Assembly (NCBI GenBank): GCA_945915475.1
Contig: CAMEFI010000023.1
Coordinates: 1-50,786 of the forward strand
Source of the DNA: an uncultured Clostridium sp.
GTDB lineage: Bacteria > Bacillota > Clostridia > Lachnospirales > Lachnospiraceae
Direction: 5' to 3'
DNA: 50,786 bases
A model generated the notes under the pieces. The model worked only from the letters and a program-made list of their open reading frames with translations. It searched no databases and had not been told where the DNA came from. Each line of letters begins with the position of its first letter. Positions within the stretch are counted from its first letter, which is position 1. Shown here piece after piece: positions 3,912 to 50,711 of the stretch. A program made the position numbers and the translations under genes.

Positions 3912-5231
3912 ATGAAACACGACAACAACGACGGCTTCCGCACACTTCCTGTCGGAACCATACTGGAAAACAACTACAAGATTCTTTCTGTTCTAGGTGA
4001 TGGTGGATTCGGCATCACATACAGAGGCTTTGATCTTCTTAAAAACAGAGAAGTTGCCATCAAAGAATATTATCCTCACGAATATGCGTACCGGGCCATG
4101 TCTTCTGACGAAAACAACCGGTGTTATACCATTTATCCATTGCAATCCGCACAGAAGCCATTCGAGAAGGGCAAAGCACACTTTCTCAGAGAAGCCACGG
4201 TTCTTAAGAACTTAGAACAGCTTCCATCCATCGTTACGGTTCTTGATATTCTGAAAACAAACGGCACCATCTATATTGTCATGGAATATATCGAAGGCAT
4301 CACTCTGCAAAAATACATACAGGACAATGGGGCGCTCTCTTATGAGGAATTACTTCCCATGATACTACCCATCATAAAAGACCTGCAGCAGATTCATGAA
4401 AGCGGTCTGATTCATCGCGATATTAGCCCGGACAACCTGATTCTCGGTATGGATAACCGTCTTCATCTCATTGATTTCGGTTCCTCCACCCATTTCTATC
4501 ATACAGGAAAAACCTCAACCACCGTATTTCTCAAATCCGGATATGCACCACCGGAACAGTATTTAGAAAACGGCAAACAGGGACCATGGATTGATGTATA
4601 TGGACTTTGTGCCACTATGTACATGGCTCTTACCAGAATCCAGCCACCGGATTCCCTGAACCGCCTGCAGACAGAGAAACTGCCTTCTCTGACATCAAAT
4701 AGTGATATTCCTAAAAATGCTGCAATGGTTATTGAAAAGGGAATGGCTTTAAAGATTGCTGACCGTTATCCATCTATGGCTGCTCTATACCAGGCACTTA
4801 CCAGACATACATCCGGTCATGGATTCCGTAAATGGCATTCTCTGATTGCAGTATGTGTTATAGGAATTCTTTTATTTGCTGCGTATCTGATATTACAATT
4901 AAGACAGACTGATGGCGCAGGAATCGTCCACACTACACCTTCCACAATGACTACCGAAACATCTCAGTCCGTATCTACCGAAGCACCATCCACTGCCAAG
5001 GCATCCACGGCCGGGACTTCTTCCGAATCCGGCAAGACTACGGAAGCTTCCGACAGCAAAGGCTCTACACCCGAAGGTTCCACTGAAAACAAACTGCCTC
5101 ACAAGGATTCATCCGAAAAAGATTCTGCCAAACCGAACCAGGCAACCGAAACTCCATCCACTACCGGGGAAACGTACAAAGTGGAACCCATTGAAGAAGA
5201 CGATTATCAGGTGCTTCCGTTAGAAGAATAG
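3912..5231 (+). CDS. Membrane-anchored Ser/Thr protein kinase (PknB-like, no PASTA)
   Basis: A 439-residue eukaryotic-type kinase. The catalytic domain (~10-290) shows the glycine loop GDGGFGITYRG, the VAIKEYYP lysine, the catalytic loop HRDISPDN, the LIDFG metal site and an APPEQY substrate motif. One transmembrane helix (WHSLIAVCVIGILLFAAYLI, ~308-328) leads to a Ser/Thr/Glu-rich outer tail with no PASTA repeats. The ATG at 3912 has GAGGT five bases upstream; an in-frame ATG at 3900 has no ribosome site and overlaps that motif, so 3912 is chosen. It lies beside two FHA proteins, the natural readers of its phosphorylation. Likely target: those FHA proteins (inference). Confidence 0.88.
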   Translation: MKHDNNDGFRTLPVGTILENNYKILSVLGDGGFGITYRGFDLLKNREVAIKEYYPHEYAYRAMSSDENNRCYTIYPLQSAQKPFEKGKAHFLREATVLKNLEQLPSIVTVLDILKTNGTIYIVMEYIEGITLQKYIQDNGALSYEELLPMILPIIKDLQQIHESGLIHRDISPDNLILGMDNRLHLIDFGSSTHFYHTGKTSTTVFLKSGYAPPEQYLENGKQGPWIDVYGLCATMYMALTRIQPPDSLNRLQTEKLPSLTSNSDIPKNAAMVIEKGMALKIADRYPSMAALYQALTRHTSGHGFRKWHSLIAVCVIGILLFAAYLILQLRQTDGAGIVHTTPSTMTTETSQSVSTEAPSTAKASTAGTSSESGKTTEASDSKGSTPEGSTENKLPHKDSSEKDSAKPNQATETPSTTGETYKVEPIEEDDYQVLPLEE

Positions 5232-19258: not shown

Positions 19259-22036
19259 TTACTCTTTTACCGCGCCTAATACAATCTGGGAAACAATTCC
19301 TTTTGAAAATAAAATAAAAACTACCGCTGACGGAATCGTTGCAAAAAGTAACATAACAAAAGTTGCCGGATTGGCGCTTGCACCCTTATTCCCTGCCATA
19401 TTTCTTAAATAAATAGCAATAGTCTTAAGTTCCCTCTCTTGCAATATCATAGTCTGTGTCAGGGAATTATTCCAGGAAGTAACAAAGGTAAATATAATCT
19501 GCAAGGATACCGCAGGCTTAATAGCCGGTAAAATAATGCGATTAAATATACCATATTCTGAACAGCCATCAATTCTTCCCGCCTCTGCAATCTCATCGAG
19601 ATGAAGTGTCCGCAGATACATCCGCATAAAAAATACAGTAGACGGCGTTGCAATTGCCGGAACAATTAACGGCAAAAAATTGTTGATGAGTCCAAGCTTA
19701 AACATCAGATTATAGAATCCTATTACACTCACCACTGGAGAAATGGCAAGTGTTGCAATAATGAAACTCCACAGTATCTTTTTGCCTTTAAATTGGAACA
19801 GTTCAAATCCATATGCAGTCATTGCTCCAAAATAGGTTGCCAACAGGCAACTTGATCCTGCAATGACAACAGAATTCCATATAGCTCTTAAAACCGAATC
19901 ATTTGACGTAGTATCATAACTTAAGAAACCTCTCGCATTATCCATAAAATGACCTTCCGGAACAAAGGATAATCCATGTACCAGACTATAAGACGTCCGG
20001 GTAGCATTGATAAACAGAATATAGATGGGTAACACCGTTACAAACGCAATCAAAATAGCTATACTCTCCCGCCATAAATACCGGATTGCATAGTTCGGAT
20101 GTCTCTTTACATACTGCATCAACTTCTTTCCCTTATGCCCCATATCCTTGCAAAATTTCTTTATCTTAGGCAATATCATCGATCTTACATACGGTCGATG
20201 AAGGACAAGGCACAACAGTCTCTGATCCACAGAATGAAGAATCGTTGCTGCAACAACGGAACTGATGAATACTACCAGAATATACATACCGCTTCCTGTG
20301 ATAAAAGTAAAATTCTGCAGAAAAATATTATGAATCAGATATAACTCCAATGAAATCTTACCCAAAAAATCTAATACCTCATTCTTACATCTCACCTTCA
20401 TGCCAATCAAAAGCACCAATAAGAGGAAACTCATAATAAATGGGATCTGCACAAACAAACTCCGAAACTTATCCCCATACATTGGATTATCCGATGTCTC
20501 TGTCCAATATCCATAATGAGTCAACGTATATATTGTAAGTTTATATAACAACGCAAATGATACAACTGCAAATGAAAGTGCAATCACATAATATTTCTTA
20601 AGGAATTGCATAATCGGCTTTTGATAACAACTTACCAACATTCCCACGAAGAATATCATAGTTGCATTATACCACCACTCCCCCTGAAACCAGTAATTTC
20701 CATGCCCAGACATCAGACTTCCAATTACGAATCCCGCGAGAAAAAATCCCATTACAAGAACTGCCACATTCTCCTTCTTAAGATAGCGAAAACAAATATA
20801 AAACACTGTATAGAGTACTGCAATCTCAACAATATACCACATCTGTGTGTTTAATAAAAGGAATCCGGTAATCCAGCCAATCCATTGTCCCAGGGATACC
20901 TGCGGATGTTTCAAACATTCTACAATCAAAAACATGAGGTTACAGACATAAAACGGAATCAAAATAGTAGAAAGACGTTTCTTAAAAAATCCATTCAAAT
21001 AATTCTTTTTCTTATGATAACTGGTCATGAGGCCGTATCCGGAAAAGAAGAAGAAAGCTCCCACAAAACAGATACCAAAATTCTCTAAAATACCAAAAAC
21101 GCCCGCCTGTTCACTACCGATCTGTTGGACCAGATGATGCATGACGATAAGTAGTGCAAAGAATCCCAACAAACTTTTTGAGCAAGAAAGCTCTAATATT
21201 TCTTCATTCCATGTCTTTTCCTCTTTTGCAATCTCCATATTAGACAGCAGAATGTACAATAATGGAATAAGAAATATCCATGATTCAAAAGTAAAATTCT
21301 TAATCATGCTCCACAGATTATCCTCATCGGTTATCTGCTCTCTATCTACAGTCGCATCTCCCACCATAAAATCATTTAAAGATTCCATAACATATTCTTC
21401 CAGATTGGAAAAATACGCGTCTCTTCCTTGCTCTATCTCACTCATGTAATAATAACTGAAGCGGATAAATCTTCCATTCACCACCGTACAACAATCCATT
21501 GTTGTGTCATATTCTTTGTACTTTTTTGCGGAACGCAAGTATTTTGCTACCGCAAAAGATCCCTTCTCATTCTCCAGCAAATAGCATTCTACATCACTAT
21601 CCATCTTATACTCTTCATCCTGTCCAGATATAATATACTGATGCACAACATCCATAAACGCCTTTTTTTGTGCTTCTGTTGCATCCGCCAGATTGTCAAT
21701 TCCTTTCCATTGCTCTATCGGAATCGTATCTGCATATACCTCTAATGTATACAAATATCCTTCCTGAACCGCCGCAAACTGCATATTATATTTTTCCAGC
21801 TGTCCTCGAATACCCTGATTGCCAGTATCCCGAAAGAAACGTTTCCACATCTTCGGTGTACTGAAACTGCAATCACACTCATTCAAATACGTAATCGCAT
21901 TTTTCGAATCCATTACTGTCGTCCCCAGTTCTGAACGCTCTTCTGTCATTCGTCTTCCTGTCAATTCCACCGATAAAGCAATCAAAATCACAATTGCCAG
22001 AAAACTTCCCACTCTCCATTGCATAACCCTCTTCAT
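19259..22036 (-). CDS. Acyltransferase-3 / MalG-type ABC permease fusion protein
   Basis: A single 925-residue frame. Helix ~8-26, then an outer domain (~27-248) with several Cys. An acyltransferase-3 domain spans ~285-605 (IVMHHLVQQ with the likely catalytic His, FFSGYGLMTSY). A basic linker (~620-650) leads to a full sugar-ABC inner-membrane permease (~655-925), with NSVVIAGSS and the ATPase-coupling EAA loop EIAEAGRIDGCSEYGIFNRI at ~816-835. No ABC ATPase, partner permease or binding protein lies nearby. GGGGGAG precedes the ATG. It heads a minus-strand operon with a second acyltransferase and a MATE transporter. Export or modification of an acylated glycan is plausible but unproven. Confidence 0.8.
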   Translation of the reverse strand: MKRVMQWRVGSFLAIVILIALSVELTGRRMTEERSELGTTVMDSKNAITYLNECDCSFSTPKMWKRFFRDTGNQGIRGQLEKYNMQFAAVQEGYLYTLEVYADTIPIEQWKGIDNLADATEAQKKAFMDVVHQYIISGQDEEYKMDSDVECYLLENEKGSFAVAKYLRSAKKYKEYDTTMDCCTVVNGRFIRFSYYYMSEIEQGRDAYFSNLEEYVMESLNDFMVGDATVDREQITDEDNLWSMIKNFTFESWIFLIPLLYILLSNMEIAKEEKTWNEEILELSCSKSLLGFFALLIVMHHLVQQIGSEQAGVFGILENFGICFVGAFFFFSGYGLMTSYHKKKNYLNGFFKKRLSTILIPFYVCNLMFLIVECLKHPQVSLGQWIGWITGFLLLNTQMWYIVEIAVLYTVFYICFRYLKKENVAVLVMGFFLAGFVIGSLMSGHGNYWFQGEWWYNATMIFFVGMLVSCYQKPIMQFLKKYYVIALSFAVVSFALLYKLTIYTLTHYGYWTETSDNPMYGDKFRSLFVQIPFIMSFLLLVLLIGMKVRCKNEVLDFLGKISLELYLIHNIFLQNFTFITGSGMYILVVFISSVVAATILHSVDQRLLCLVLHRPYVRSMILPKIKKFCKDMGHKGKKLMQYVKRHPNYAIRYLWRESIAILIAFVTVLPIYILFINATRTSYSLVHGLSFVPEGHFMDNARGFLSYDTTSNDSVLRAIWNSVVIAGSSCLLATYFGAMTAYGFELFQFKGKKILWSFIIATLAISPVVSVIGFYNLMFKLGLINNFLPLIVPAIATPSTVFFMRMYLRTLHLDEIAEAGRIDGCSEYGIFNRIILPAIKPAVSLQIIFTFVTSWNNSLTQTMILQERELKTIAIYLRNMAGNKGASANPATFVMLLFATIPSAVVFILFSKGIVSQIVLGAVKE

Positions 22037-35319: not shown

Positions 35320-35453
35320 TTGGATACCTCCTTTGATATATGTACGGTTGGCGAACCTGTACTTATTATATCACTGGAGGTTTTTCACTGTAAGCTAAAG
35401 CATCTGTGGACACACCTGCATAGCAGGTGGTTTATTTGTATTAGATACAAATA

Positions 35454-35483
35454 GAGATCACGAAAGAATCCTTTCATGATCTC
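35454..35483 (-). terminator. Terminator of the second DUF4143 ATPase gene
   Basis: The stem GAGATCA-x-GAAAG pairs with CTTTC-x-TGATCTC around AATC, followed on the minus strand by TATTTGTAT. It starts 13 bases after the gene's stop. Confidence 0.65.
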
Positions 35484-35496
35484 CTATATTAATCGA

Positions 35497-36792
35497 TTAA
35501 ATACAAAATGCTGCGTAAAGCGGAACTACTTTCTTATTGTCTTCAAAAGCGAAATTCTTAGAAGATAACTTGATCGCATATACTGGTTTGTAAGTATTCA
35601 TATATACATTCAAACTTTTCGCTCTTGTATTATCCGCTGACTTAACCTCAATCGGAATGATCTTCCCTTCCCGCTGAATCACAAAATCAACTTCTGCTCC
35701 ACGCTCCGACTCCCAATAATATGTGTGATATGCATTTGCAATTAATTGTGCATTCACATAATTCTCAGTCATACCACCCTTAAAATCATTTATCTCATCT
35801 ACCATATACAAGATATCATTTGCTGCCAAATCTTTCTTGGCACACAACAAGCCCAAATCTGACACATAGATTTTGAAAGCATCTATATCCCTGTAATTTT
35901 CCAACGGCTTCTTAATCTGTTCCACTCTGTATATCTTAGAAACAACCCCTGACAAACACAACCACTCTATTGCATTCTCAAATTCCGAAGCACGTCCCCC
36001 TTTCTTGATCAACTTATACTGGAAACGGGTATTCTTCTTTGAAAGCTGTACTGTAATGTTATCATATGCCAATCTTGTCTTCTTAATCTCATTGGTATTA
36101 TTGTACTTACTCATATCATTCAGATAACTTGCAAGAATCGTATCCTGTGTATGACGGATCAATACATAATCCTTCGTCTGTACATATTGCATGACACATT
36201 CCGGCATTCCTCCGACAACAAGATACTGCCGATACAGTTGCATTGCATGATCGTGCAATGCAGAAGGCATTGGTTCATTGGTGAGAAAATGCTTTCGGAT
36301 TCGTTCAACCAACTTCTCCTCCCCCATTGCAATCAGGAACTCCTCCATATCCATTGGATACATCGTTTTCATATCTACCTTTCCCACCGGAAATGAAAAC
36401 TGTGCCCGATTCACCGCTACTCCTAACAGACTTCCCGCTACAATAATATGATAGTCCGGCTCCTGTTCACAGAAATATTTCAAGGAAGTCAATGCCCGCT
36501 CGCACAATTGAACTTCATCTAACACGATCAATGTCTTTTCCCTGATGATCGTCTGCCCTGCAATATGTGACAAGATCGGAATCAGATAATTAGGACTGAT
36601 ATTCTCCTCAAATGTTTCACACAATTTAGGATTCGTTTCAAAATTAAAATATGCAACATTATCATAATGCGTCCTTCCAAACTCCAAAATGGAATATGTC
36701 TTACCAACCTGTCTTGCCCCTTGTATAATAAGCGGTTTACGATATGGGGTCTCTCTCCAATCCTCCAAGAAATTCATAATTTTTCTATACAT
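35497..36792 (-). CDS. AAA ATPase with DUF4143 domain
   Basis: A 431-residue protein opening with MYRKIMNFLEDWRETPYRKP. Walker A is QGARQVGKTYS, Walker B LIVLDEVQLCE and the sensor AGSLLGV. The C-terminal DUF4143 part contains ERGAEVDFVIQREGKIIPIEVKSA, a PD-(D/E)xK-like nuclease signature. It belongs to a different subgroup from the ATPase at 27678-28907. The ATG at 36792 is weakly supported by GGTGGTG; the frame to 36813 has no ribosome site. Confidence 0.82.
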   Translation of the reverse strand: MYRKIMNFLEDWRETPYRKPLIIQGARQVGKTYSILEFGRTHYDNVAYFNFETNPKLCETFEENISPNYLIPILSHIAGQTIIREKTLIVLDEVQLCERALTSLKYFCEQEPDYHIIVAGSLLGVAVNRAQFSFPVGKVDMKTMYPMDMEEFLIAMGEEKLVERIRKHFLTNEPMPSALHDHAMQLYRQYLVVGGMPECVMQYVQTKDYVLIRHTQDTILASYLNDMSKYNNTNEIKKTRLAYDNITVQLSKKNTRFQYKLIKKGGRASEFENAIEWLCLSGVVSKIYRVEQIKKPLENYRDIDAFKIYVSDLGLLCAKKDLAANDILYMVDEINDFKGGMTENYVNAQLIANAYHTYYWESERGAEVDFVIQREGKIIPIEVKSADNTRAKSLNVYMNTYKPVYAIKLSSKNFAFEDNKKVVPLYAAFCI

Positions 36793-36942
36793 AATGTCAC
36801 CACCCTGATCCATTTTCTTGTAGTATATAATATATTCATGTCAAATTCAACGTATTTTCATTCAAAAATTACACTAAAATGCACGAACTTTTCTTTCAAT
36901 CTAACATTATTCTACACTTATTACTTCTATCTTATTCTTCCC

Positions 36943-36971
36943 TTGCCCTCACTCCGCAATCGTGCTACACT
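36943..36971 (+). promoter_or_regulatory. Promoter of the DUF1295 gene
   Basis: TTGCCC, 17-base spacer, TACACT on the plus strand, about 30 bases before the ATG at 37003. Confidence 0.5.
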
Positions 36972-37002
36972 TGATTTTATCAATAAATACGAGGTGAATA
37001 AC

Positions 37003-37794
37003 ATGAATTTCTTAATTTTTCTTGCTGTTGCATTAGTGATCAGCTGCATCGGTTTCTACAAATATGTGTACTTTATATCCTTAGGCTACGGTTTCTCGAT
37101 TGCAGGAATCGGCATTGCCCTGCTCATTCTCTACCCGGAGCAGTTAACCGTTCCAACCATTCTTGCCTGCATCCTGTTTATTATCTACGGCTGCCGGCTT
37201 GGTGGATATCTTCTGGTGCGTGAGATCAGGAGTGCATCTTACCGAAGTACCATGAAACGTGAGATTAAGGACGGTTCCGATATGAAAATGATTGCAAAGG
37301 TAAGCATCTGGATCACCTGTGCATTACTCTACGTCTTAGAGGTATCGCCAGTATTCTTCCGCTTATACAACGGTGGCAAGACAGATGTTGTTACAATCGT
37401 CGGTATCGTGATCATGGCATGCGGTATTATATTAGAATCCACTGCTGACCTTCAGAAATCCAGAGCAAAGAAAAAGAACCCGAACCGCTTCTGCGATTCC
37501 GGGCTCTACAAAATCGTCCGTTGTCCGAATTACCTTGGGGAAGTATTGTTCTGGACCGGCGTTTTCGTATCCGGTGTAACAACTCTCACCGGAGCATTAC
37601 AATGGGTATGTGCACTCCTTGGCTGGGCCTGCATCGTCTACATCATGTTCGGCGGTGCCAGACGTCTGGAGATTCGGCAGAACAAGAACTATGGTTCCGA
37701 CCCGGAGTATCAGGCATATGTGCAGCATACCCCAATCCTGTTACCACTCATCCCACTTTATAGTGTCGAAAAGTATAAGTGGTTGATCGGATAA
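37003..37794 (+). CDS. DUF1295 membrane protein (steroid 5-alpha-reductase-like)
   Basis: A 263-residue protein with about seven helices. The C-terminal part CDSGLYKIVRCPNYLGEVLFWTGVF is the family signature near the cofactor site of steroid-reductase and isoprenylcysteine-methyltransferase-like enzymes. Substrate unknown. The ATG at 37003 has GAGGTG six bases upstream. The frame is open back to 36667, but that part overlaps the ATPase gene and the promoter and looks non-coding. Single gene. Confidence 0.82.
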   Translation: MNFLIFLAVALVISCIGFYKYVYFISLGYGFSIAGIGIALLILYPEQLTVPTILACILFIIYGCRLGGYLLVREIRSASYRSTMKREIKDGSDMKMIAKVSIWITCALLYVLEVSPVFFRLYNGGKTDVVTIVGIVIMACGIILESTADLQKSRAKKKNPNRFCDSGLYKIVRCPNYLGEVLFWTGVFVSGVTTLTGALQWVCALLGWACIVYIMFGGARRLEIRQNKNYGSDPEYQAYVQHTPILLPLIPLYSVEKYKWLIG

Positions 37795-37834
37795 TCTATT
37801 TTACTGTTTATATTTATTCGATAACGTAAATAAA

Positions 37835-41138
<3,304 letters not shown>

Positions 41139-41202
41139 ACTCTGTTCTCCTTTCGTCATTTCCTGATTACATAATTGCGAAACCGTCTATATTCTTAAGA
41201 TC

Positions 41203-41340
41203 GTTGCCCAAGTATAACAATACTATCGCAGGCACGCTCTCGCTACTCATCACTCGCAGCGGTACTAAGCTCGAAATAACCTCGCTAAGTACCGGCGGTT
41301 CTGAAGTACCTGCTTATAGTAACTGTTATACTTGCACAAC
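41203..41340. repeat. 138-bp long-hairpin element in the PTS leader
   Basis: The outer ~35 bases of each end are imperfect inverted repeats (GTTGCCCAAGTATAACAA vs GTTGTGCAAGTATAACAG), with a nested GGTACTAAGC / GCTAAGTACC pair inside. It has no open frame. It lies between the licT-type terminator and the PTS start, so it would be part of the 5' leader. Could be a dispersed repeat or a structured RNA. Confidence 0.55.
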
Positions 41341-41385
41341 ACTCCCTTCACTTCTATAAGTTCCGCAATTACTTTACCCGGAATT

Positions 41386-41445
41386 AAAAATGACCCGAAA
41401 CAGACACAATGTATGAAATTATACACACATCGTGTCGTTCGAGTC
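41386..41445 (-). terminator. Leader terminator before the PTS gene
   Basis: On the minus strand GACTCGAACGACAC pairs with GTGTCTGTTTCGGGTC through a long stem, followed by ATTTTTAATT. Its 5' arm overlaps the antiterminator element, so LicT binding would prevent termination. Confidence 0.8.
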
Positions 41446-41469
41446 ATGCCTAGTCGTACTAGTAACACC
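41441..41469 (-). promoter_or_regulatory. LicT/BglG ribonucleic antiterminator (RAT) before the PTS gene
   Basis: Minus-strand GGTGTTACTAG...CTAGGCATGACTC fits the RAT pattern GTTACTG-N-GCAGGCAAAACC. It lies right after the licT stop and overlaps the terminator arm. Confidence 0.75.
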
Positions 41470-41470
41470 T

Positions 41471-42304
41471 TTATGCTTTTTTACCTATACGGTTCAAATG
41501 TAATGTCAGATATAAGATCTCACCTCTGCTGATCTCCCAGTGATACGTCTGTTTCAGGAAGTCTGCGATCTTCAACGAACACTTATAATCTTCCGGACAG
41601 CTTACGATCACCGCCTCTGCGATTGTCTCATCAATATCTAACACTTCGCCCTTCATCTGGCGCTGCACGAAATACCGGATATGAGAGATGAACCTGCGGA
41701 TATCAAAATCATCCTCATCAAACTCTCTCTTATAGTATATCTTGCAGATATTCAAGATGTTCTGAATTATCTTTGTGCCTAGAATGGTGTTCTGCATTCC
41801 TTCCAAGTTAAGGTTCGCATTGATGAAATGCAATGCAATAAATGCTGCCTCCTGCTTTGGAATCTCGGTATTCAAATCCCGTTGCAGATCTTCTACCACT
41901 GTCATCGCATATCGATATTCCTTCGGATAGATCAATTTGATATCCCACTCTAATGGAGAAGCGAAATACACGCCTTCTTTCACACGTTCCAACATCATTC
42001 CCAGGTGATCTGATAAAGTTAATAGAATACTGTCATTACAATGGTATCCCAACTGCTGTTCCCCACGCTTGATAATATCGCTGGCCAGTTCGAGATTATC
42101 TAACGAGATACGTTCCAACAGACGGTTAAAGTCTTTGTGACCTTTCTCACCATCGAGGACAAAGAGTTTTTCCACACGACTTTCATTGACAAAACCGCCG
42201 GGTTTCAAACCAAATGCAACCCCGCTACCCATAACAACTGCTTCCTGCTTGTTGTCATCATAGACTAATGCCACATTATTGTTCAATGCTTTAATCAACT
42301 CCAT
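41471..42304 (-). CDS. licT: BglG/LicT-family transcription antiterminator
   Basis: A 277-residue RNA-binding regulator. The N-terminal ~55 residues are the co-antiterminator domain (MELIKALNNNVALVYDD), followed by two PRD domains with conserved His in SDHLG, ALHFINANL and TLHLNRIG contexts. PTS phosphorylation of these His residues sets activity by sugar flux. GAGGAGG precedes the ATG at 42304. RAT/terminator pairs lie both before this gene and before the PTS gene. Confidence 0.93.
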   Translation of the reverse strand: MELIKALNNNVALVYDDNKQEAVVMGSGVAFGLKPGGFVNESRVEKLFVLDGEKGHKDFNRLLERISLDNLELASDIIKRGEQQLGYHCNDSILLTLSDHLGMMLERVKEGVYFASPLEWDIKLIYPKEYRYAMTVVEDLQRDLNTEIPKQEAAFIALHFINANLNLEGMQNTILGTKIIQNILNICKIYYKREFDEDDFDIRRFISHIRYFVQRQMKGEVLDIDETIAEAVIVSCPEDYKCSLKIADFLKQTYHWEISRGEILYLTLHLNRIGKKA

Positions 42305-42373
42305 TGTTTCTGCCCTCCTCTCGTTCACCTGATTCTTTCATACATCCTCTCTCCCACCGGTTCAAGGATATAC

Positions 42374-42421
42374 AAAAAGGCATAACCAAAAAACGTATCA
42401 TTCTACGAATATGGTCATGCC
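42374..42421 (-). terminator. Leader terminator before licT
   Basis: Minus-strand GGCATGACC pairs with GGTTATGCC, with an inner CGTA/TACG stem, followed by TTTTTGT. The 5' arm overlaps the RAT element. Confidence 0.85.
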
Positions 42422-42440
42422 TGCTTTATCAGTAACACTC
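42413..42440 (-). promoter_or_regulatory. LicT/BglG RAT before licT
   Basis: Minus-strand TGTTACTGATAAAGCAGGCA followed by TGACC closely matches the RAT consensus. It indicates autoregulation of licT. Confidence 0.88.
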
Positions 42441-42448
42441 TAGATATG

Positions 42449-42477
42449 ATTATAGGGGAATTGCAGCAAAATGTCAA
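42449..42477 (-). promoter_or_regulatory. Consensus sigma-A promoter of the licT-PTS-bglA operon
   Basis: TTGACA, 17-base spacer, TATAAT on the minus strand; both boxes are perfect. Expression must then be limited by the leader terminator just downstream. Confidence 0.92.
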
Positions 42478-42486
42478 TCACTATTT

Positions 42487-43812
42487 TTACAACGGTCTTA
42501 TATAATGCAATGCATCAAACGGAAATACAATCGCAACACTATACACATCCTGCTCATGTTTTACTCTCATAATTCCGTTATATGCTCTTACCGACTTTTT
42601 CACATTATCAAGACCATATCCGTGAATAAAATCGATTTCGTCTAAATTCTGTACCACCTTATCATCCGGTCCGGGTACATAGGTATTTGCAATATATATG
42701 GCAAATGCATTGTTTTCCACCTGTTGTATCTTAAGCACGATCTTGGGATCAAGCTGTCCCTGACAGGCATTCAAAGCATTATCTAACAGATTCCCTAATA
42801 TGATCGCCAAATGATAATCACTAACCGGAACCCGTTGTGCCTCCACCTTCAGACTCGCAGTCAATTGAATTCCCTTAGATCTGGTCTGTAACATAAAATT
42901 GCTCACAAGTGCATCAATTGCCAGACATCCTGTATTCACTGTTGCATATCTTGATTCCAGATCTGCCATTGCTTCCTGTGTATATGCCGTGATCACATCA
43001 TATTCTTTCCTTTTCACACATTCATTAATACAGTTAAAATGTTTCTTCGTATCGTGCACGAAACTCCGGATATCCCGATAGGCTTCGCCTAATTGATCAT
43101 AACGCTGTTTCTGTCTTAGCAGCTGATCATCTAACATTTGATTCTTTTGTTCCAGCTCTTCTGCCTTTAACACATTCCCAAGCAATACATAATTCACCAC
43201 ATTGATTACAAAAAGAAAAAGCATCAGCGTGATATAAAATTGAGGATTGCTAACGATCATTTCAGAGCAGGGTGGCATAAGAAACAAAACACACGATAAT
43301 AAAGGAATTATTATTAGCAGCAACGAATACATCTTAGAATGCACTCTTTCCTTTCTCTTCCACACTGCTCGAAACAGCAAAACAGCTACTAACAAAATCA
43401 ATCCCTTCACATAACTTATCGCAACAAATGACCAGTCAGGCAGACGATCCATCTGATCTTTTACTCCGGTAATATGGCTTACCAGATAATATGAACCATC
43501 TTCAAAAACAAAACTAATTATCATAATACTTACTACTGCAAAGACTCTCTCTTGTAGTTTCAGCCTATAAAAATATGTTAATACAAAATATGTCACTATT
43601 GACAACAACGACCTTAGGTAAAATGCGCCCTGCGAAGTATTACCCAGCAAAAAATGTGTCATTATTCCATAAGCAATCTCTGTAACAATGCACCCCGTTA
43701 TAACCCATACGGAGCTTACATCCTGTCTCCGCTTATCATACAGTGTCTGATAATATATATACATTACTACTGCATCCAACACCCCTGTTATATAATCTAA
43801 TATTGTCAACAT
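42487..43812 (-). CDS. AgrC-like GHKL sensor histidine kinase
   Basis: A 441-residue membrane kinase. Six to seven helices (~1-215) form the peptide sensor; a coiled linker leads to the phospho-His in FVHDTKKHFNCINE, the N-box ILGNLLDNALNAC and the G-box GYGLDNVKKSV. This is the HPK10 type that reads cyclic peptides in Agr systems. AGGAGAA precedes the ATG. It follows the response regulator by 12 bases. Confidence 0.9.
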   Translation of the reverse strand: MLTILDYITGVLDAVVMYIYYQTLYDKRRQDVSSVWVITGCIVTEIAYGIMTHFLLGNTSQGAFYLRSLLSIVTYFVLTYFYRLKLQERVFAVVSIMIISFVFEDGSYYLVSHITGVKDQMDRLPDWSFVAISYVKGLILLVAVLLFRAVWKRKERVHSKMYSLLLIIIPLLSCVLFLMPPCSEMIVSNPQFYITLMLFLFVINVVNYVLLGNVLKAEELEQKNQMLDDQLLRQKQRYDQLGEAYRDIRSFVHDTKKHFNCINECVKRKEYDVITAYTQEAMADLESRYATVNTGCLAIDALVSNFMLQTRSKGIQLTASLKVEAQRVPVSDYHLAIILGNLLDNALNACQGQLDPKIVLKIQQVENNAFAIYIANTYVPGPDDKVVQNLDEIDFIHGYGLDNVKKSVRAYNGIMRVKHEQDVYSVAIVFPFDALHYIRPL

Positions 43813-43824
43813 ACATCCGTTCTC

Positions 43825-44556
43825 CTAATTCATCACAACCATCGTTTTCTCAAGGAATAGATCCTGTACCATCTTCACTCTTCTTCTGCTGATCGGAATT
43901 GTCATCCCATCCACCAGCCGTAGCCCCAACCGTTCCACTGCCACAACGTATTTCAGATTCACCAGATATCCCCTGCACGGAGAGATAAATGCATATGACT
44001 GCAAACTTGCCTCCCACTGTTGAATTGTTCCCTCCCCAGTTATTGTTTCATTTTGCAGTACATATTGTAAGATCGGCTTCTTATCTTTCAATGTCTTCAT
44101 ATATACAATATCTCTAACCTGGATTACCCGCTTCTCTCCATCTGTTTCAACAATCACTTTTGTAATACGGGAATGTTCATATCGATGCACAATATCCCGA
44201 AACAATTTCTCCATCTGTTCATATTGTATTGGCTTAACTAGAAACTGAAATGGCTGAACGTCAAAACTATCCTGCATATATTTCGGATAAGAAGTAACAA
44301 ACACAATAATAATGTCATCCTGCACATCTTCCCGTAACTTCTTTGCCACCTCTAAACCATCTATCTCCGGCATCTCAACATCCAATAACGCAATATGATA
44401 TGGATTCTTTTGATTGCTTTGCAGCAATTCCTTTCCATTCGTAAATGATTCGATCTCAAATTCTATATCTTTTTGCATCTGGTACCGTTCCATATATTGC
44501 TGCAATACCCAGATTACACTCTCTTCATCATCGCAGATTCCAACCCGTAGTTTCAT
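43825..44556 (-). CDS. AgrA-like response regulator (receiver-LytTR)
   Basis: A 243-residue regulator. The receiver (~1-120) has the acidic pair in GICDDEES, phospho-Asp in IALLDVEMPEIDG and Lys in FLVKPIQ. The LytTR domain (~140-240) contains SPCRGYLVNLKYV and PISRRRVKMV. It starts with an ATGA overlap on agrB. The paired boxes at 45208-45297 are its probable binding sites. Confidence 0.92.
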   Translation of the reverse strand: MKLRVGICDDEESVIWVLQQYMERYQMQKDIEFEIESFTNGKELLQSNQKNPYHIALLDVEMPEIDGLEVAKKLREDVQDDIIIVFVTSYPKYMQDSFDVQPFQFLVKPIQYEQMEKLFRDIVHRYEHSRITKVIVETDGEKRVIQVRDIVYMKTLKDKKPILQYVLQNETITGEGTIQQWEASLQSYAFISPCRGYLVNLKYVVAVERLGLRLVDGMTIPISRRRVKMVQDLFLEKTMVVMN

Positions 44557-45122
44557 AATCCCCTCCTGTTCTTCACAATTCCTGCAATCAGCCCTATTAA
44601 TTCAATTATAACACAGATACTGATTGCCGCATAATACAGATTCCACTCACAAAACCAGAACCAGACTTCCACCACACTCAATCCGACACACAATATAACA
44701 CATCTTCTATGTAACCGTTTTCTCTGTTCGGAGGAAAATCTCTTGTTCGGAGTATCCACCGGTGCTACCGCAAGTATCCCAATACAGCCTATCCCATATA
44801 AAATGATCCAAGTGACATGAAACCATGGGACTACATAAGGTGTGACATATAAAAAAATCCCAAATACTCCATAAGATAAGACACTACATATCTCCTTCGA
44901 ATCTGCGTGATAGCCTCCTGCAACAAAACGCAGTGTCATTGCCACCAACAGATAACATGCTGCAATTCCTAATCTTCCACACAATAACCCGATCAGGACA
45001 AGACTGCCGCTATACAGAATGCTTTCTATTATATAATCAAATATATATGCATATATGGCTTGTTCCTTTTCGTTTATTGTGTGATTCTGTACCAAAACCT
45101 GTGCGATCCAATTCCCTGACAT
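44553..45122 (-). CDS. agrB: AgrB-like autoinducer-processing membrane protease
   Basis: A 189-residue membrane protein with about five helices. The catalytic pair is intact: His and Cys seven residues apart in RFVAGGYHADSKEICSVLSY. AgrB cuts and cyclises the AgrD precursor to the autoinducing peptide. No agrD is seen before, inside or after this operon. AAAGGGAG precedes the ATG. First gene of agrB-regulator-kinase, reading away from the inverted-repeat control region. Confidence 0.92.
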   Translation of the reverse strand: MSGNWIAQVLVQNHTINEKEQAIYAYIFDYIIESILYSGSLVLIGLLCGRLGIAACYLLVAMTLRFVAGGYHADSKEICSVLSYGVFGIFLYVTPYVVPWFHVTWIILYGIGCIGILAVAPVDTPNKRFSSEQRKRLHRRCVILCVGLSVVEVWFWFCEWNLYYAAISICVIIELIGLIAGIVKNRRGL

Positions 45123-45169
45123 CTTTCTGCACTCCCTTTCCGCACTTTACTTACTATTTTATATTCTGT

Positions 45170-45335
45170 AGTATAACATAGATTATCTATGTACTCTGGT
45201 CTTTGGGGTAAGTGGTCGAAATACGGGGGGTGAACGGTCAAAAAGCATATTCATATTAAACATGTTACCGTTCACCCCCCGTATTTCGACCACTTACCCC
45301 AAAAATCGTTTTGAAAGGGTTCTTCATGTTATAAT
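45170..45335. promoter_or_regulatory. Symmetrical divergent promoters with LytTR-like box pairs
   Basis: Plus side: boxes ACCGTTCAC (45267) and ACCACTTAC (45289), 22 bases start to start, then 32 bases to TATAAT (45330-45335). Minus side: the same two boxes in mirror image (45208-45238), then exactly 32 bases to TATACT (45170-45175). Neither promoter has a good -35, as expected for activator-dependent promoters of the AgrA type. Confidence 0.8.
45202..45303. repeat. Perfect 37-bp inverted repeat between agrB and the peptide gene
   Basis: Arms 45202-45238 and 45267-45303 are exact reverse complements, separated by 28 AT-rich bases. They carry the regulator boxes plus C-runs. Not a terminator (no T-run placed for either gene). 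Confidence 0.95.
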
Positions 45336-45389
45336 TCACCCATAGATTTTAGACGAAATCTTACATTATAAGAAAAAGGAGGATTCATC

Positions 45390-45773
45390 ATGAAACTTAG
45401 GAAAAAAATTATGGGATTATCATTAATTGTGGCAATTGCAGCAACAAGTGTTACAACAGTCTTTGCAGCTACAGGATCTAATTCATTTGGAACATTGAGC
45501 AATGCTCACTCTAGTGCATCTACATCTTTTACTTCTACAGGCAAATCCAATTTAGCAGCACAATGGAGTGGTATGCCAGGTGGTGCAATATTATATGTTA
45601 CATGCCCTTCCAATGGATTGACACATACCATTGTCATAACCGGACCGAATGACTCTCCATCGTCAGCTAAGTATTCATCTACTCCCGGTTCAGGAGATAA
45701 AGTTCAGGTAAATGCTAGATTAGGCGGTGCAACCAACAGAACTAACGTAAGGGCAAGTGCATATGAATTCTAA
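45390..45773 (+). CDS. Small secreted Ser/Thr/Gly-rich protein, Agr-regulated
   Basis: A 127-residue precursor of no recognised family. Signal peptide ~1-26 (MKLRKKIMGLSLIVAIAA..., cut after VFA). The mature ~101 residues are Ser/Thr/Gly/Asn-rich, beta-like, with one Cys (72) and two Trp/Met-containing core strands. AGGAGG precedes the ATG, and the Agr-type promoter lies ~55 bases upstream. It is first in a cassette with immunity-like ABC genes, so a bacteriocin-like or signalling role is possible; nothing in the sequence proves it. Confidence 0.75.
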   Translation: MKLRKKIMGLSLIVAIAATSVTTVFAATGSNSFGTLSNAHSSASTSFTSTGKSNLAAQWSGMPGGAILYVTCPSNGLTHTIVITGPNDSPSSAKYSSTPGSGDKVQVNARLGGATNRTNVRASAYEF

Positions 45774-47070
45774 TAAGGGCTTATGCATATGTGCACTGCT
45801 TCTAACCCTGCTTTCGGTACCGGGCTGTGTCCCGGTACCGGAAGAGGTACGTAACAATGCCGGGCTGTATGAAAATCTAACAAATGAAGAGGATACGGAT
45901 ACCTCCAAACTATCGTATGTATCGCTCGCACAGCTGCAGGAGGAGGCACAGCAATGGAAGGGAAAAACTTATAACCAGATCGGGTTGCCGAATCAGATCA
46001 GCATCCCACCCTCCGATATGGCAGTGTTGGATATGGGGAATTTTGTGGATACCTATTCCCAATCGGAACGGCTGTTGCAATACTTTTTACCCGAGTATCT
46101 GACTGCTTCCGCAGAATATAAGGATGCCTTTCAGTCTACACAGCAACGATTCAAAGGCTGGGAATATGAAACATCGCAAGACTATAAGATATGGAATACC
46201 CCACCCACTGATAAATATGCTGATTCTCCCGATCGAAGGCTGGGAACAAATACGTATGGCCGCTTTTTCTATGCTAACGGTTGGGAGCCCACATTAGATC
46301 AACTGGATACAGATGTCGACCATATCAAGCGGGTAGCAGCATTCCATATCAGTAAGGAGGGAATCCCGGATCAGAGCTACTCCCTCTCCGGTCAGGAGGA
46401 ATCCGTGGCAGCTGCGGTTGCATATACAGAGACTACAGTGAATCAGTGGATGGAGGTTGTCTATGGACGAAAGGTCTATGACTACCGGGTAGACTGGCTC
46501 TTTGTGATATCCGACGGCAACCTCTGGTACTATTCCATGGTATTGAACCGAACATATAACGGTGTCCTCTTTGATGACGCTCCTGCTTATCCGAACGAGA
46601 CAGAGGAACTATATGACGAACAGGATTATCTGTATGGAAGCTATCCTTTGACCGTACAGATGTTCAAACCGGACACCATCGGCTTTCTCCGGGAAGCATA
46701 TTCCCTGCTTCCATCGGAGCAGCAGAAGGTGAATTCCTACCTGTCCTTAGCCTCAGCCATCCAGCTTGTCTCTTCGAAATTAGCGGCAAAGAATATGTTT
46801 TCCTTTGACAATGTATCGCTTTGCTATACCCTGCGGCAGGATATTCTGACGGATGTTGAGACCGGGCAGCGGAAGTATCCGTTTGGATGCGGATTAATTA
46901 ATTACGTTGATTCCACCGTTATCGCCAGACCGACCTGGGTATTTTCAATCGATAGGAGCCGAGTTCCGGAATATAACGATATGAACCGTCTAAACGGACG
47001 TAGCCTCACGGTACTGATTGATGCAATTGATGGAACTTTTCAATATTACACAGGAGATTGGGGAGAATGA
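45763..47070 (+). CDS. Agr-cassette lipoprotein of unknown function
   Basis: A 435-residue lipoprotein: lipobox LLSVPGC at ~16-22, then an outer domain rich in Trp and Tyr with no family recognised. The ATG at 45763 overlaps the peptide gene's end by 11 bases, with AAGGG upstream; a GTG at 45757 is an alternative. A 14-bp stem-loop sits in codons ~17-27. Stop overlaps the next gene as ATGA. An immunity or sensing role is inferred only from context. Confidence 0.75.
   Translation: MNSNKGLCICALLLTLLSVPGCVPVPEEVRNNAGLYENLTNEEDTDTSKLSYVSLAQLQEEAQQWKGKTYNQIGLPNQISIPPSDMAVLDMGNFVDTYSQSERLLQYFLPEYLTASAEYKDAFQSTQQRFKGWEYETSQDYKIWNTPPTDKYADSPDRRLGTNTYGRFFYANGWEPTLDQLDTDVDHIKRVAAFHISKEGIPDQSYSLSGQEESVAAAVAYTETTVNQWMEVVYGRKVYDYRVDWLFVISDGNLWYYSMVLNRTYNGVLFDDAPAYPNETEELYDEQDYLYGSYPLTVQMFKPDTIGFLREAYSLLPSEQQKVNSYLSLASAIQLVSSKLAAKNMFSFDNVSLCYTLRQDILTDVETGQRKYPFGCGLINYVDSTVIARPTWVFSIDRSRVPEYNDMNRLNGRSLTVLIDAIDGTFQYYTGDWGE
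45811..45844 (+). other. Strong stem-loop inside the lipoprotein start
   Basis: CTTTCGGTACCGGG pairs with CCCGGTACCGGAAG (one wobble) around CTGTGT. There is no T-run, so it is more likely an mRNA processing or stability element that sets more of the peptide than of downstream products. Confidence 0.5.
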
Positions 47071-47942
47071 TGAATAGAATGAAACAATGGTTGAACAGAG
47101 GCTGCAGGTACACAGGCGGTATACATATGCCGGGTATGATCCTCCTGATGGTCGTACTGCTTACCATGAAGAATTCCTTTATGACGACAGAAACGGAAAG
47201 AACCCTATTCTATGAGATCTTTAAGGAAGGCAAAGCTGCGTTTGAACAGGCAGGTCTGATTGGAACTGCCGTATTCCAGCTTACGGATATTGGCAATGTA
47301 AGTGACTGGCTTGTGATATTCTTTCCATTTATAGCCGGTTACTCCTTTGTCACAGTTCTCTGTGATGATTTTCAATCTGGTTTTGTACGACTTGCAGCCG
47401 TACGGATGGGAAGTCGGCGCTATCTGCGCCGGATGTTCCGTTGCGGAATACTGGCTATTCTGGTAATCGGTATTACGGCACTGCTCCTGTTTGGCATCTT
47501 CTGCAGGGTAACATGCTTATCCATACATGACCTGCCGCACGAAGAGGCCGCAATGCTGTATAAAGCGATCTGGCGGAAGACATACGCCGGTACTTCTGAT
47601 CCGACTATATGGAATTATATCTATCCGTTGCTGCGTAATAACTTGGTGATCCTCTTTGTTATGCTGTTAGAGGGGTTGATCTCTTTCCTGCTTGCCGCAG
47701 CCACAAAGAACAAATATTTTTCTCTGTTTGTGCCCTGTATGGTGTTATATATATTGGTGAAGACGGCAGACTCCCTAGTTGAAAGAGGATTCGGATGGGC
47801 AGAATATCTGTCACCGGCTGCATGGTTTGTACATACGCCGACATTGATTGTGGTGCTCAGTCTTTCCATATTCATCGTAGTGGCAGCCGAGGAAGCTTTT
47901 GTAAGAATATTAGATAGGGGGGTGGATTGCCTTGCATATTAA
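47067..47942 (+). CDS. Membrane protein, probable ABC-2-type permease 1
   Basis: A 291-residue protein with about six helices and a large loop after the first (~35-75), the layout of BcrB/LanE-like permeases. No signature motif. Starts on the ATGA overlap (47067) or the next ATG (47070), both after GGGGAG. Overlaps the next permease gene. Confidence 0.65.
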   Translation: MMNRMKQWLNRGCRYTGGIHMPGMILLMVVLLTMKNSFMTTETERTLFYEIFKEGKAAFEQAGLIGTAVFQLTDIGNVSDWLVIFFPFIAGYSFVTVLCDDFQSGFVRLAAVRMGSRRYLRRMFRCGILAILVIGITALLLFGIFCRVTCLSIHDLPHEEAAMLYKAIWRKTYAGTSDPTIWNYIYPLLRNNLVILFVMLLEGLISFLLAAATKNKYFSLFVPCMVLYILVKTADSLVERGFGWAEYLSPAAWFVHTPTLIVVLSLSIFIVVAAEEAFVRILDRGVDCLAY

Positions 47943-48807
47943 AAGAACGCGAAGACATAGGATTCGAAATATTATACGCCTAAACTGGACGGAATTTGTA
48001 AGGAGCCCTAAGCTCTACCTGATCCTATTCTCCTATATATGTATCGTGGAACGCAGTCTGCTCCCTATGCTCCGGTTATCTGACCAGATTGGAGAGGCAC
48101 TGAATATTGTTGAACCCTTCATTGCATTTTGTAACTCCAAATGGGAAGCACTGCTGATCCCATTAACATATCTGGTTATCTTCTGCGATTATCCCCGATC
48201 CAATTCACATTACACATATACGATCGTAAGAGCCGGACGTGCAAACTGGATCTGGGGAAATTGTCTGTTTGCCATGCTGGTGTCTACTGTATACATGGGC
48301 AGTATCTTTGTTATGTCGCTAATCGTGTGCCAGAAGCAAAGCTTTGTATTCAACGGCTGGAGCCTGTATACCAGAAAGATGAAATACTACTATAATACAC
48401 AGCTTATGGCATTCGGAGAGGATAAAGTATTAGATGCAGGGCTGTACATGCATTATAGTCCGTATGAAGCATTAGGCTATACATTACTGTTAAATATATT
48501 AATGGGACTTACCATATCCGGTATCTTTTTGTTATGCAACGTATTACAGAAGCATAATCTTGGCATGATATGCAACGTATTATTGCTGGTTGGCGGTTGG
48601 ATCACAAATCAGTTTCTTGGAAATATCATGTGGATCTTTCCCTATGCAAACTGTAAGCTCGGATGGCACCACAAATACATATTACGGGAGACAATATTAA
48701 CAGATGGTTATTCCGTGGCATATTTTGTAATTCTGATATTGATCCTGTATGGCTTCCTGTTTTGGAAGATCCGCAGGACGCCAATCTATGTATCGGACAA
48801 TCTGTAG
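47932..48807 (+). CDS. Membrane protein, probable ABC-2-type permease 2
   Basis: A 291-residue protein with about six helices and a basic N-terminus (HIKRTRRHRIRNIIRLNW). Similar size and layout to the preceding gene, so a heterodimeric permease is likely. Start is TTG at 47932 with GGTGG six bases upstream, inside the end of the previous gene. The ATPase gene follows 12 bases after the stop. Confidence 0.65.
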   Translation: MHIKRTRRHRIRNIIRLNWTEFVRSPKLYLILFSYICIVERSLLPMLRLSDQIGEALNIVEPFIAFCNSKWEALLIPLTYLVIFCDYPRSNSHYTYTIVRAGRANWIWGNCLFAMLVSTVYMGSIFVMSLIVCQKQSFVFNGWSLYTRKMKYYYNTQLMAFGEDKVLDAGLYMHYSPYEALGYTLLLNILMGLTISGIFLLCNVLQKHNLGMICNVLLLVGGWITNQFLGNIMWIFPYANCKLGWHHKYILRETILTDGYSVAYFVILILILYGFLFWKIRRTPIYVSDNL

Positions 48808-48819
48808 GAGGACAAGACG

Positions 48820-49470
48820 ATGGAGGAAAAAGTATACGCAGTAGAATTACATGAAGTGGGACTCACGATTGACAAGCAGGAGTTGTTGAAGGATATTTCC
48901 CTGAATCTTGATTATGGAAAGATATATGGCATTATCGGACGCAACGGTTCCGGCAAGACGCTGCTGTTCAAATGTATTGCCGGATTCATCCTGCCAACAC
49001 ACGGAGATATCGAAGTGATTGGAGAACAGATCGGACAGGACACCGATTTTTCGGGACATATGGGCGTTATCATTGAAACACCGGGATTCATACCTCACTA
49101 TTCCGCATATAAGAATCTGAAGATTTTAGCTGACATTTCAGGCGGGGTGAAGAAAGAACGTATCATAGAGTGTATTCGCATGGTGGGTCTGGACGAAAAA
49201 GAGCGCAAACCTGTGAAGAAATATTCTCTTGGCATGCGACAACGACTAGGCTTAGCGCAGGCAATCATGGAAGACCCACATGTACTTGTATTAGATGAAC
49301 CGATGAACGGACTAGACAAACAAGGAGTAGAGGATATCCGCCATCTTTTGCTCGAACTGAAAAAGCAGGACAAAACCATTCTCATCGCATCCCATAATGC
49401 AGAAGATATCCGTCTCTTGTGTGATGAGGTCTATGAAATGGATGCAGGCATGCTGACAAAAATAAAGTAA
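48820..49470 (+). CDS. ABC transporter ATP-binding protein (BcrA/LanF-like)
   Basis: A 216-residue ATPase. Walker A GRNGSGKTLLFK, signature YSLGMRQRLGLAQ, Walker B VLVLDEPMNGLD and the switch His in IASHNAED are all present. The short single-domain form and SLGM signature match the bacitracin/lantibiotic immunity type of exporter. It should energise the two membrane proteins upstream. Confidence 0.92.
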   Translation: MEEKVYAVELHEVGLTIDKQELLKDISLNLDYGKIYGIIGRNGSGKTLLFKCIAGFILPTHGDIEVIGEQIGQDTDFSGHMGVIIETPGFIPHYSAYKNLKILADISGGVKKERIIECIRMVGLDEKERKPVKKYSLGMRQRLGLAQAIMEDPHVLVLDEPMNGLDKQGVEDIRHLLLELKKQDKTILIASHNAEDIRLLCDEVYEMDAGMLTKIK

Positions 49471-49487: not shown

Positions 49488-50711
49488 ATGAAACGCTATG
49501 TCATGGGAATTACAATGTGTCTGATACTTATATTCGTAACCACCGGATGTGGGAATCGGTTATCTTATGATGAACATACTATTGTATTAGGGGTTCTATC
49601 CGGCGGTGGTCAATCCATTGAAGAAGCTGTTGCCACATATAACCATTCCCACAATGATTATCAGATTGTTCTGAAGGATTACGGGAGCAAGGACAATGCG
49701 ATTGACAAGATGATTACGGATCTTATGACCGGCTCTACACCGGATATTATCTTTCTGAATACACTTCCCATTGAACAATATGTGGAAAAGGGCTTGTTAG
49801 AAGACTTAACACCATATATGGAGCAGGATCCGGACTGTTCGGTAGAGGATCTCATACCGAATGTATATGATAACATGAGAATAAACGATGGTCTATATTT
49901 TACCTCACCAGGGTTTGCTGTATTTACAATCGGGGCAGGACAGAGTGTAGTCGGAAATCATAGCGGATATACCATTACGGAATTTAATGATCTATTAGAG
50001 ACGCAGAAGAATAAGGATATCCAGCCATTCTATAGTACATACAAGGGACATCTTCTGTCCACCCTATGCTGCTATAATCTTGGTGATTATATCGACTGGA
50101 ATACCGGAACCTGCTCCTTCGACGGAGAAGAATTCCGGACAATTCTTCAATTGTGTAATGAATGGGGCGAAAATGATCTCACGGATTATGAGGAAGAAGA
50201 ACCCGAATTAGTATCCTCCGGCAGAGAATTGTTTGTCCTAACAGAGGCAGACCTCAGAAATATGGAATATAACCGGGAGATGTTTCAGGAGGAGATCTGC
50301 TATATTGGATATCCCTGTGCAGACCGCCAAGGAAATTATATGAAATTCAGCACAATGCTTGGTATGAATACCAAGTCAGAGAAAAAGGATGCTGCTTGGT
50401 CTTTTCTGCGCATGTTTATGACACAGGCATTTCAGAAGGATAATATCTTCTGCGACTGGCCAAGCAGATCCGACTGCTATGAGCAAAAGCTTGCTGACGC
50501 GGTTGCAGATACCCCTGAATATGCACAAGATGTACCTATATTACGACAGATAATAGAAAACACTCATAAGAGAGATCAAACAGAGGATGCTTTGATGGAT
50601 GAGATCATCTGGGATGAAGCCGAAAAATACTTCCAGGGTAAAAAGACCTTAGACGAAACGGTAGCTATCATCCAGAAACGCTGTCAAACATATGTAAACG
50701 AACATCGATAG
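49488..50711 (+). CDS. Extracellular solute-binding lipoprotein (family 1)
   Basis: A 407-residue lipoprotein: lipobox VTTGC at ~17-21, then a sugar-type binding protein (TIVLGVLSGGGQSIEEAVATYN, LMTGSTPDIIFLN, EDLTPYMEQD). No importer permeases are encoded nearby, so it may catch a ligand for the exporter-like complex or act as a sensor. AGGAGG precedes the ATG. Last gene of the cassette; 20 bases later an IS200 end begins. Confidence 0.88.
   Translation: MKRYVMGITMCLILIFVTTGCGNRLSYDEHTIVLGVLSGGGQSIEEAVATYNHSHNDYQIVLKDYGSKDNAIDKMITDLMTGSTPDIIFLNTLPIEQYVEKGLLEDLTPYMEQDPDCSVEDLIPNVYDNMRINDGLYFTSPGFAVFTIGAGQSVVGNHSGYTITEFNDLLETQKNKDIQPFYSTYKGHLLSTLCCYNLGDYIDWNTGTCSFDGEEFRTILQLCNEWGENDLTDYEEEEPELVSSGRELFVLTEADLRNMEYNREMFQEEICYIGYPCADRQGNYMKFSTMLGMNTKSEKKDAAWSFLRMFMTQAFQKDNIFCDWPSRSDCYEQKLADAVADTPEYAQDVPILRQIIENTHKRDQTEDALMDEIIWDEAEKYFQGKKTLDETVAIIQKRCQTYVNEHR

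Follow-up and report, generated by a model that had tools for sequence, protein, structure and literature searches.

We describe a mirrored promoter architecture that recurs in agr-type loci of gut Clostridia: two pairs of LytTR-type boxes point outward from a common center, each at a set distance from its own −10 element, and the two pairs keep a shared helical phase across the dyad. Our starting point was one contig of an uncultured Clostridium, the whole 50,786-nucleotide stretch that we call the window. On sequence evidence, the region at 45170–45335 is probably an Agr-type LytTR quorum-sensing control region in which each arm acts as an AgrA-type operator. The mirror layout is found repeatedly among these loci, and it looks new.

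The center of the region is a 37-bp inverted repeat between agrB and a secreted-peptide gene, with arms at 45202–45238 and 45267–45303 that are complementary at 37/37 positions and lie on either side of a 28-nt spacer (45239–45266). The original prediction had claimed this perfect repeat, two 9-base LytTR-like boxes 22 bases apart in each arm, and 32 bases to the −10 on both sides, and our measurements bore out all three. Read from the center outward, each arm consists of ACCGTTCAC, 13 bp, and ACCACTTAC, two LytTR-type 9-mers with a period of 22. The right arm, the proposed operator of the secreted-peptide operon (plus strand), carries these boxes at 45267–45275 and 45289–45297. The left arm, the proposed operator of the agrB–regulator–kinase operon (minus strand), carries their mirror copies at 45238–45230 and 45216–45208. 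No second exact inverted repeat of at least 15 bp (arm starts up to 600 bp apart) exists in the window, where the runner-up is 14 bp. With up to three mismatches allowed, a degenerate box-pair pattern occurs twice in the window, at the two operator sites and each time without mismatch; the chance mean is 0.35, with two or more occurrences in 4 of 100 shuffles. The 34-nt arm has no further copy in its own genome at up to three mismatches.

On either side, 32 nt separate the second box from an extended −10, TGTTATACT for the agrB operon (45170–45178, minus strand) and TGTTATAAT for the peptide operon (45327–45335, plus strand). The hexamers, TATACT at 45175–45170 and TATAAT at 45330–45335, each have a TG one base upstream, and the predicted starts are ∼45163 and ∼45342, respectively. 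Best −35 matches at spacings of 15–19 reach only 2/6 for the agrB operon and 3/6 for the peptide operon, and on average the mirror loci described below likewise show no −35 clearly above chance (mean 3.32/6 over 34 arms vs. 3.02 in shuffles). Together with these weak −35s, the right-hand box pair is centered (45282) at −60 from its predicted start, a placement mirrored on the opposite side. The two ∼9-bp direct repeats are 13 bp apart in both arms, within the 11–13 bp range given in the available excerpts of a study of LytTR systems (PMC6193735). The promoter sequences flanking the arms show little likeness to each other, except for an 8-base match at and before the −10.

The genes on the left are those of an agr locus. 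On the minus strand, agrB (44553–45122) encodes a 189-aa protein (AgrB PF04647, E 3e-30) whose H72 and C79 fall in invariant columns of a six-sequence alignment; we take them to be the protease histidine and cysteine. It is accompanied on that strand by a response regulator with a LytTR DNA-binding domain (43825–44556; PF00072 3.9e-17, PF04397 7.7e-12), the proposed ligand of all four boxes, and by an AgrC-like GHKL sensor kinase (42487–43812; PF14501 6.2e-14; NF046015 1.7e-6, far under its cut-off). Three components of a complete agrBDCA locus are therefore present, and agrD is absent from the ORFs of the locus, an absence that the original prediction did not mention. The plus-strand operon on the right begins with a secreted 127-aa peptide (45390–45773; signal peptide recognized by eye) and continues with a lipoprotein-like protein (45757–47070), two membrane proteins assigned by eye (47058–47942 and 47932–48807), an ABC ATPase (48820–49470), and a solute-binding protein (49488–50711).

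The 127-aa peptide has no Pfam or PHROGs match and only NCBIfam matches far under cut-off. The genome-contig database scan found no relatives, phmmer found no homologue at E<1 among the ORFs of the agr-type loci collected here, and the best chain among solved structures had E 2.2; aligned with three other cluster peptides, it is 21–25% identical. We name no peptide family for it. Elsewhere in the window, a LytTR domain (PF04397, 3.2e-22) is fused to an FHA domain (PF00498, 4.1e-16) at 2487–3281 (plus strand), and a Ser/Thr protein kinase (PF00069, 3.6e-33) is encoded downstream at 3900–5231 (plus strand); the fusion is possibly a LytTR regulator under Ser/Thr phosphorylation. A single 925-aa frame at 19259–22036 (minus strand) joins acyltransferase (PF01757) and ABC permease (PF00528) domains.

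By analogy with the AgrA and LytTR families, the kinase would phosphorylate the regulator, and the phosphorylated regulator would bind both arms, each of them two 9-bp half-sites in direct repeat centered at about −60. It would then bring polymerase to both promoters, each of which has an extended −10 and no clear −35. Binding to both arms would make the agrB–regulator–kinase operon self-inducing, a positive feedback, and would co-induce the peptide/ABC operon.

It is useful to compare this arrangement with known systems, here as they appear in the available parts of the cited papers. In the Staphylococcus aureus agr P2–P3 region, divergent promoters with suboptimal core elements likewise each have a LytTR direct-repeat pair, the AgrA operators being centered near −60, and P2, like the left-hand promoter here, drives the agr genes themselves (PMC4227749). 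There, however, SarA binds between the pairs and P3 makes RNAIII (PMC4227749), whereas the window has 28 bp between its pairs, identical arms, a divergent operon for a secreted peptide, and no agrD. The pln system of Lactobacillus plantarum (PlnC/PlnD) also has 9-bp tandem repeats, with a 12-bp spacer and on the same helix face, at bacteriocin operons, but its phasing is within one pair and that of the window is between two mirrored pairs (PMC2714321). In the streptococcal sil system (SilA), P3/P4 and P5/P6 are divergent; a LytTR repeat pair at each of P3 and P4, in the silE–blpM intergenic region and controlling bacteriocin-like genes, resembles our layout, but the intergenic segment is 286 bp and one of the pairs can be lost without effect on the other promoter (PMC2766830). 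The LytTR Regulatory Systems HdrRM and BrsRM share a repeat spacer of mostly 12 bp (a minority being 11 or 13), repeats ∼10 bp upstream of the −35, autoregulation, and a putative extended −10 at hdrRM. They differ in having one pair per promoter, and the words "inverted" and "divergent" are absent from the accessible text (PMC6193735).

The same symmetry was then sought in related genomes, and the mirrored quartet of boxes was found at 27 distinct loci. A genus search with the regulator covered 26 genomes, 25 of which matched at 1e-10; most of the matches listed are 22–33% identical. A 99% identical regulator lies on contig C4 of genome G397 (RUG10817, a metagenome-assembled Lachnospiraceae; CACWQE010000004.1). 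The regulator matched 3 of 392 order-level and 10 of 397 family-level genomes. A scan of genome contigs with a regulator alignment (A5) gave 80 loci, and a scan of viral contigs gave one distant relative and no accepted quartet.

Mirror loci were collected in two ways. The first scan, of 154 loci (many overlapping), required a box-pair period of 20–22 and a −10 at 30–35 nt, and it yielded 17 distinct mirror loci, the window included; its box matrix was trained on 28 boxes, among them those of the window and some from the same loci, and the gap between the pairs had no part in the training. The second search dispensed with the matrix and used mutual box similarity, a period of 20–22, and a −10 at 31–33 nt. 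It regained 13 of the 15 first-set loci that it covered, with the same gap after a register shift by eye (L070 and L102 differed), and it added ten, for a total of 27 distinct divergent agr-type mirror loci. This matrix-free scan gave a result for 72 of the 80 loci, 33 of them above their six shuffles (L075 by way of a run of N, later skipped). Its follow-up compared 12 picked loci and 33 others with 15 shuffles each, where about three would be expected above their shuffles by chance; 18 were, and with L111, L152, and L153 repeating other loci, 15 were new. The set of ten leaves out L061, L037, L038, L019, and L056, whose four boxes have a negative box-matrix score; this filter was applied post hoc. 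L148 (gap 7, in phase) was not counted, its score being below its shuffles.

Accepted quartets occur in 25 of the 80 regulator-linked loci, and 15 of these 25 records are titled Lachnospiraceae. As a control, block shuffling (one shuffle at each of six thresholds) produced no mirror pairs, against 11–19 in the real sequence; it comprised 160 loci and 1.16 Mb, overlapping loci included. The 34 arms of the first 17 mirror loci place the −10 at 32 nt (23 arms), 33 nt (9), or 31 nt (2), where 30–35 was allowed. When 26–39 was allowed, 15 of the 16 pairs above the 99% shuffle level were at 32–33, and the remaining one overlaps a better pair at L041. The ranges for period and −10 distance are built into the scans. 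Two further observations concern the relatives. Both agr clusters of RUG10817 have an extra LytTR promoter with this geometry, placed between agrD and the peptide gene (L067 at 4096 and L079 at 3974, both minus strand). Among genus relatives, agr clusters look worn while their mirror operators persist: at L040 no agrB match adjoins the regulator, and at L044 agrB is in two pieces.

This survey changes how the geometry of the window should be read. The original prediction held that equal geometry on both sides is unlikely by chance and that it suggests one regulator switching on both transcripts. Arm identity is indeed far beyond chance, but the equal −10 spacing is to be expected, since all 34 arms have 31–33 nt. 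One regulator for both transcripts is still the natural reading of an Agr-type cluster with paired repeats on both sides. The equal geometry itself follows from a general LytTR/AgrA promoter rule and hence is no evidence of special coupling. Likewise, perfect symmetry is unusual, with perfect arms at 1 of 17 loci, but the mirror layout itself recurs.

Phasing between the arms, which the original prediction could not have seen, provides better evidence for coupling. Inner-box gaps in the first 17 loci are −2, 6, 7, 8, 8, 8, 9, 16, 17, 17, 18, 19, 19, 20, 28, 28, and 39 bp, and in the second ten 62, 6, −2, 19, 6, −2, 17, 7, 8, and 7 bp. They fall into classes of −2, 6–9, 16–20, 28, 39, and 62 bp. 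Among periods of 4–40, the best for the first set is 10.25–10.5; at 10.5, R is 0.815 (Rayleigh p ∼1.2e-5, n = 17). When L092 (orthologue of L090) and L032 (orthologue of L031) are dropped, n is 15 and a jitter test gives p 3e-5, or 1e-4 when the period may vary from 8 to 13. The second set of ten loci lies within 2 bp of the first-set phase (V-test p 1.1e-4). Without the post hoc matrix filter, the V-test on the 15 new loci gives p 3.5e-4; L037 and L038 are out of phase, and 13 of the 15 are within 2.1 bp of it. Collapsing 28 entries (L111 included) at 80, 60, 50, and 45% regulator identity left 25, 22, 20, and 14 clusters; the respective p values are 1.4e-7, 1.5e-6, 7.5e-6, and 4e-4, and R is 0.79–0.75. 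A second matrix, made from 18 hand-picked boxes at sites without a listed mirror partner, gave R 0.82, 0.82, and 0.80 (n 12, 9, and 7; p 3e-4, 2e-3, and 0.011). Because the phasing survives the collapse by regulator identity, shared descent alone is a poor explanation for it.

The resulting rule is a gap of 7.6 + n × 10.5 bp, to within ∼2 bp. The window, with its gap of 28, deviates by −0.57 bp; it is one of the 17 phase-fixing loci, and without it R is 0.79 (n = 14). Its subfamily neighbors L031 and L041 have a gap of 8, so the window has about two extra helical turns. Our literature searches, which covered open-licence PMC papers, turned up no description of phasing between two mirrored LytTR pairs.

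The fixed helical phase across the dyad leads us to propose, tentatively and as somewhat short of an even chance, that operators and regulators form a single cooperative assembly, in which up to four regulator protomers on two operators would serve both promoters. LytTR regulators bind direct repeats, and direct repeats have no two-fold symmetry. Regulators on opposite arms might touch each other or a common partner; for example, four protomers on one helix face might meet across the central dyad through two-fold symmetric receiver contacts, which direct repeats alone leave unsatisfied, and so fire both transcripts together. Against the explanation as a whole, 55 of the 80 regulator-linked loci lack an accepted mirror quartet, and in G397, the closest relative, most of the palindrome is absent and yet the genes are retained.

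The strongest competing explanation is that two ordinary, independent AgrA-type promoters lie back to back, their phasing reflecting avoidance of clashes, another local constraint, or shared descent. Each arm by itself fits the LytTR promoter rule, and loci with a single detected pair occur (L016 and L021). In the available portions of the sil study, P3 is active without the other repeat pair (PMC2766830); removal of a pair there leaves the other promoter unaffected, so coupling is no rule of LytTR systems. However, the phasing outlasts the collapse by regulator identity and is seen in six classes of gap, the smallest −2 and the largest 62 bp, and avoidance of clashes explains poorly why the phase is kept at gaps of 28, 39, and 62, although these gaps account for only 2, 1, and 1 of the 27 loci. 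We consider independent promoters a serious possibility, but a somewhat doubtful one.

A separate question is why the arms of the window are perfect. At 31/31 positions alike they are the only such case among the 17 mirror loci, the next best being 26/30. A period of 21 is found in 31 of 34 arms, and the window is the only locus with 22, which it has in both arms. More generally, where both arms have period 21 (14 loci), linkers are more alike within a locus (8.36/12) than between loci (6.43/12; p 5e-5). Boxes at 14 loci behave in the same way (13.6/18 vs. 10.9/18; 0 of 20,000 permutations). Likeness between the arms of one locus thus extends past the boxes, with exceptions: linker agreement is just 6/12 at L031 and 5/12 at L032. 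Template switching homogenizes near-palindromic arms, according to the available parts of two reports (PMC8604942, PMC7202029). Perfect arms with a common 22-nt period fit recent arm-to-arm copying, and we think that the perfect identity is best explained by such copying within an already mirrored operator, with replication template switching at the near-palindrome as the proposed route. Selection by a single regulator could be an alternative source of arm likeness within a locus.

The surroundings of the palindrome also have a history. Window positions 35445–45217, a 9.8-kb segment, are 98.6–99.3% identical to the G397/RUG10817 contig, whereas the other shared segments that were compared are 76–80% identical. 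The segment was therefore probably transferred recently, unless a metagenome binning error is responsible. High identity ends at 45217, within the left arm. The RUG10817 assembly lacks window bases 45218–45322 (105 bp, most of the palindrome) and resumes just before the right-hand −10; this absence is possibly an artifact, since hairpins can drop out in assembly or amplification. Beyond that −10 the RUG10817 leader is 81% identical to near the start codon and is followed by agrD and a different peptide operon. With the break in identity inside the palindrome and a different operon beyond it, the control region is also the joint of an exchange of output operons. Elsewhere in RUG10817, ∼22 kb (C4 ∼13272–35438) lie between segments that are ∼130 bp apart on contig C7 of the window genome, as if the insert were a mobile island.

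These facts raise the possibility that one operator was recently duplicated in inverted orientation during the swap of the peptide operon, with no older mirror at this site. The odd period of 22 common to both arms would fit, as would a 98.6–99.3% segment that stops in the left arm beside a right-hand leader of just 81% identity. Against this, the subfamily relatives L031 and L041 are already mirrored, and the promoter regions beyond the arms are unlike except around the −10, so that a duplicated operator would have needed to insert at precisely the correct distance from another −10. We judge inverted duplication unlikely and prefer copying between arms that were already mirrored.

Very improbable, finally, is that the palindrome has a structural role, be it as a cruciform, as a hairpin or terminator of a transcript, or as a DNA inversion site: it folds strongly as single-stranded DNA (−47.2 kcal/mol, z −14.3 vs. 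shuffles), but it is upstream of both predicted starts and so part of neither mRNA, a terminator scan of 43500–46500 (loops of 3–8 only) was empty, and other mirror loci are imperfect while boxes, −10 distance, and phase recur, which implies that the recurring feature is not pairing. A terminator or hairpin RNA was accordingly dropped as a candidate, given this upstream position and, by eye, no T run after either arm. No evidence of site-specific inversion at the palindrome was found in the assembled sequence.

The missing agrD bears on what the locus might sense. G397 carries agrD at the corresponding promoter, the one that the 127-aa peptide gene occupies in the window. An agrD profile match adjoins the mirror region in 16 of 28 clustered entries (27 distinct loci); the window and 11 other mirror entries, some of them short contigs or stretches, have none. 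The window's own genome contains three further AgrB genes, each with an adjoining AgrD-like match, of which one passes the TIGR04223 cut-off and two fall short of it. A search of this genome with TIGR04223 and AgrD alignment A2 found matches beside those three agrB genes and only weak ones elsewhere. When the whole genome was queried with aligned AgrD sequences of the relatives' type, the best match had an E of 0.025 and fell at a different agr locus. The contig ends (50786) 75 bases past the operon's final gene and does not show what follows, and with the genome rated 97.9% complete, agrD could sit in unassembled sequence. With its own agrD absent from the assembly, the kinase may listen to a signal made by neighbors. 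The near-identity of the locus to that of the RUG10817 species suggests that this signal is the peptide of that species.

Overall, the layout provides a rule (box, 21 nt from start to start, box, 32 nt, TGnTAnnnT, mirrored in helical phase) with which peptide operons under agr control can be located in gut bacteria; the copy without agrD is a candidate for signal eavesdropping. The mirrored agr promoters of these gut Clostridia could be one bidirectional switch, which in this organism would have lost its own agrD, gained a different output, and may hear its neighbors; we offer this picture with some reserve, as a conjecture less than evenly likely. If it is true, a phase-locked mirror pair would show how receiver dimers could still pair symmetrically on direct-repeat sites, and how a single signal can switch on two operons together.
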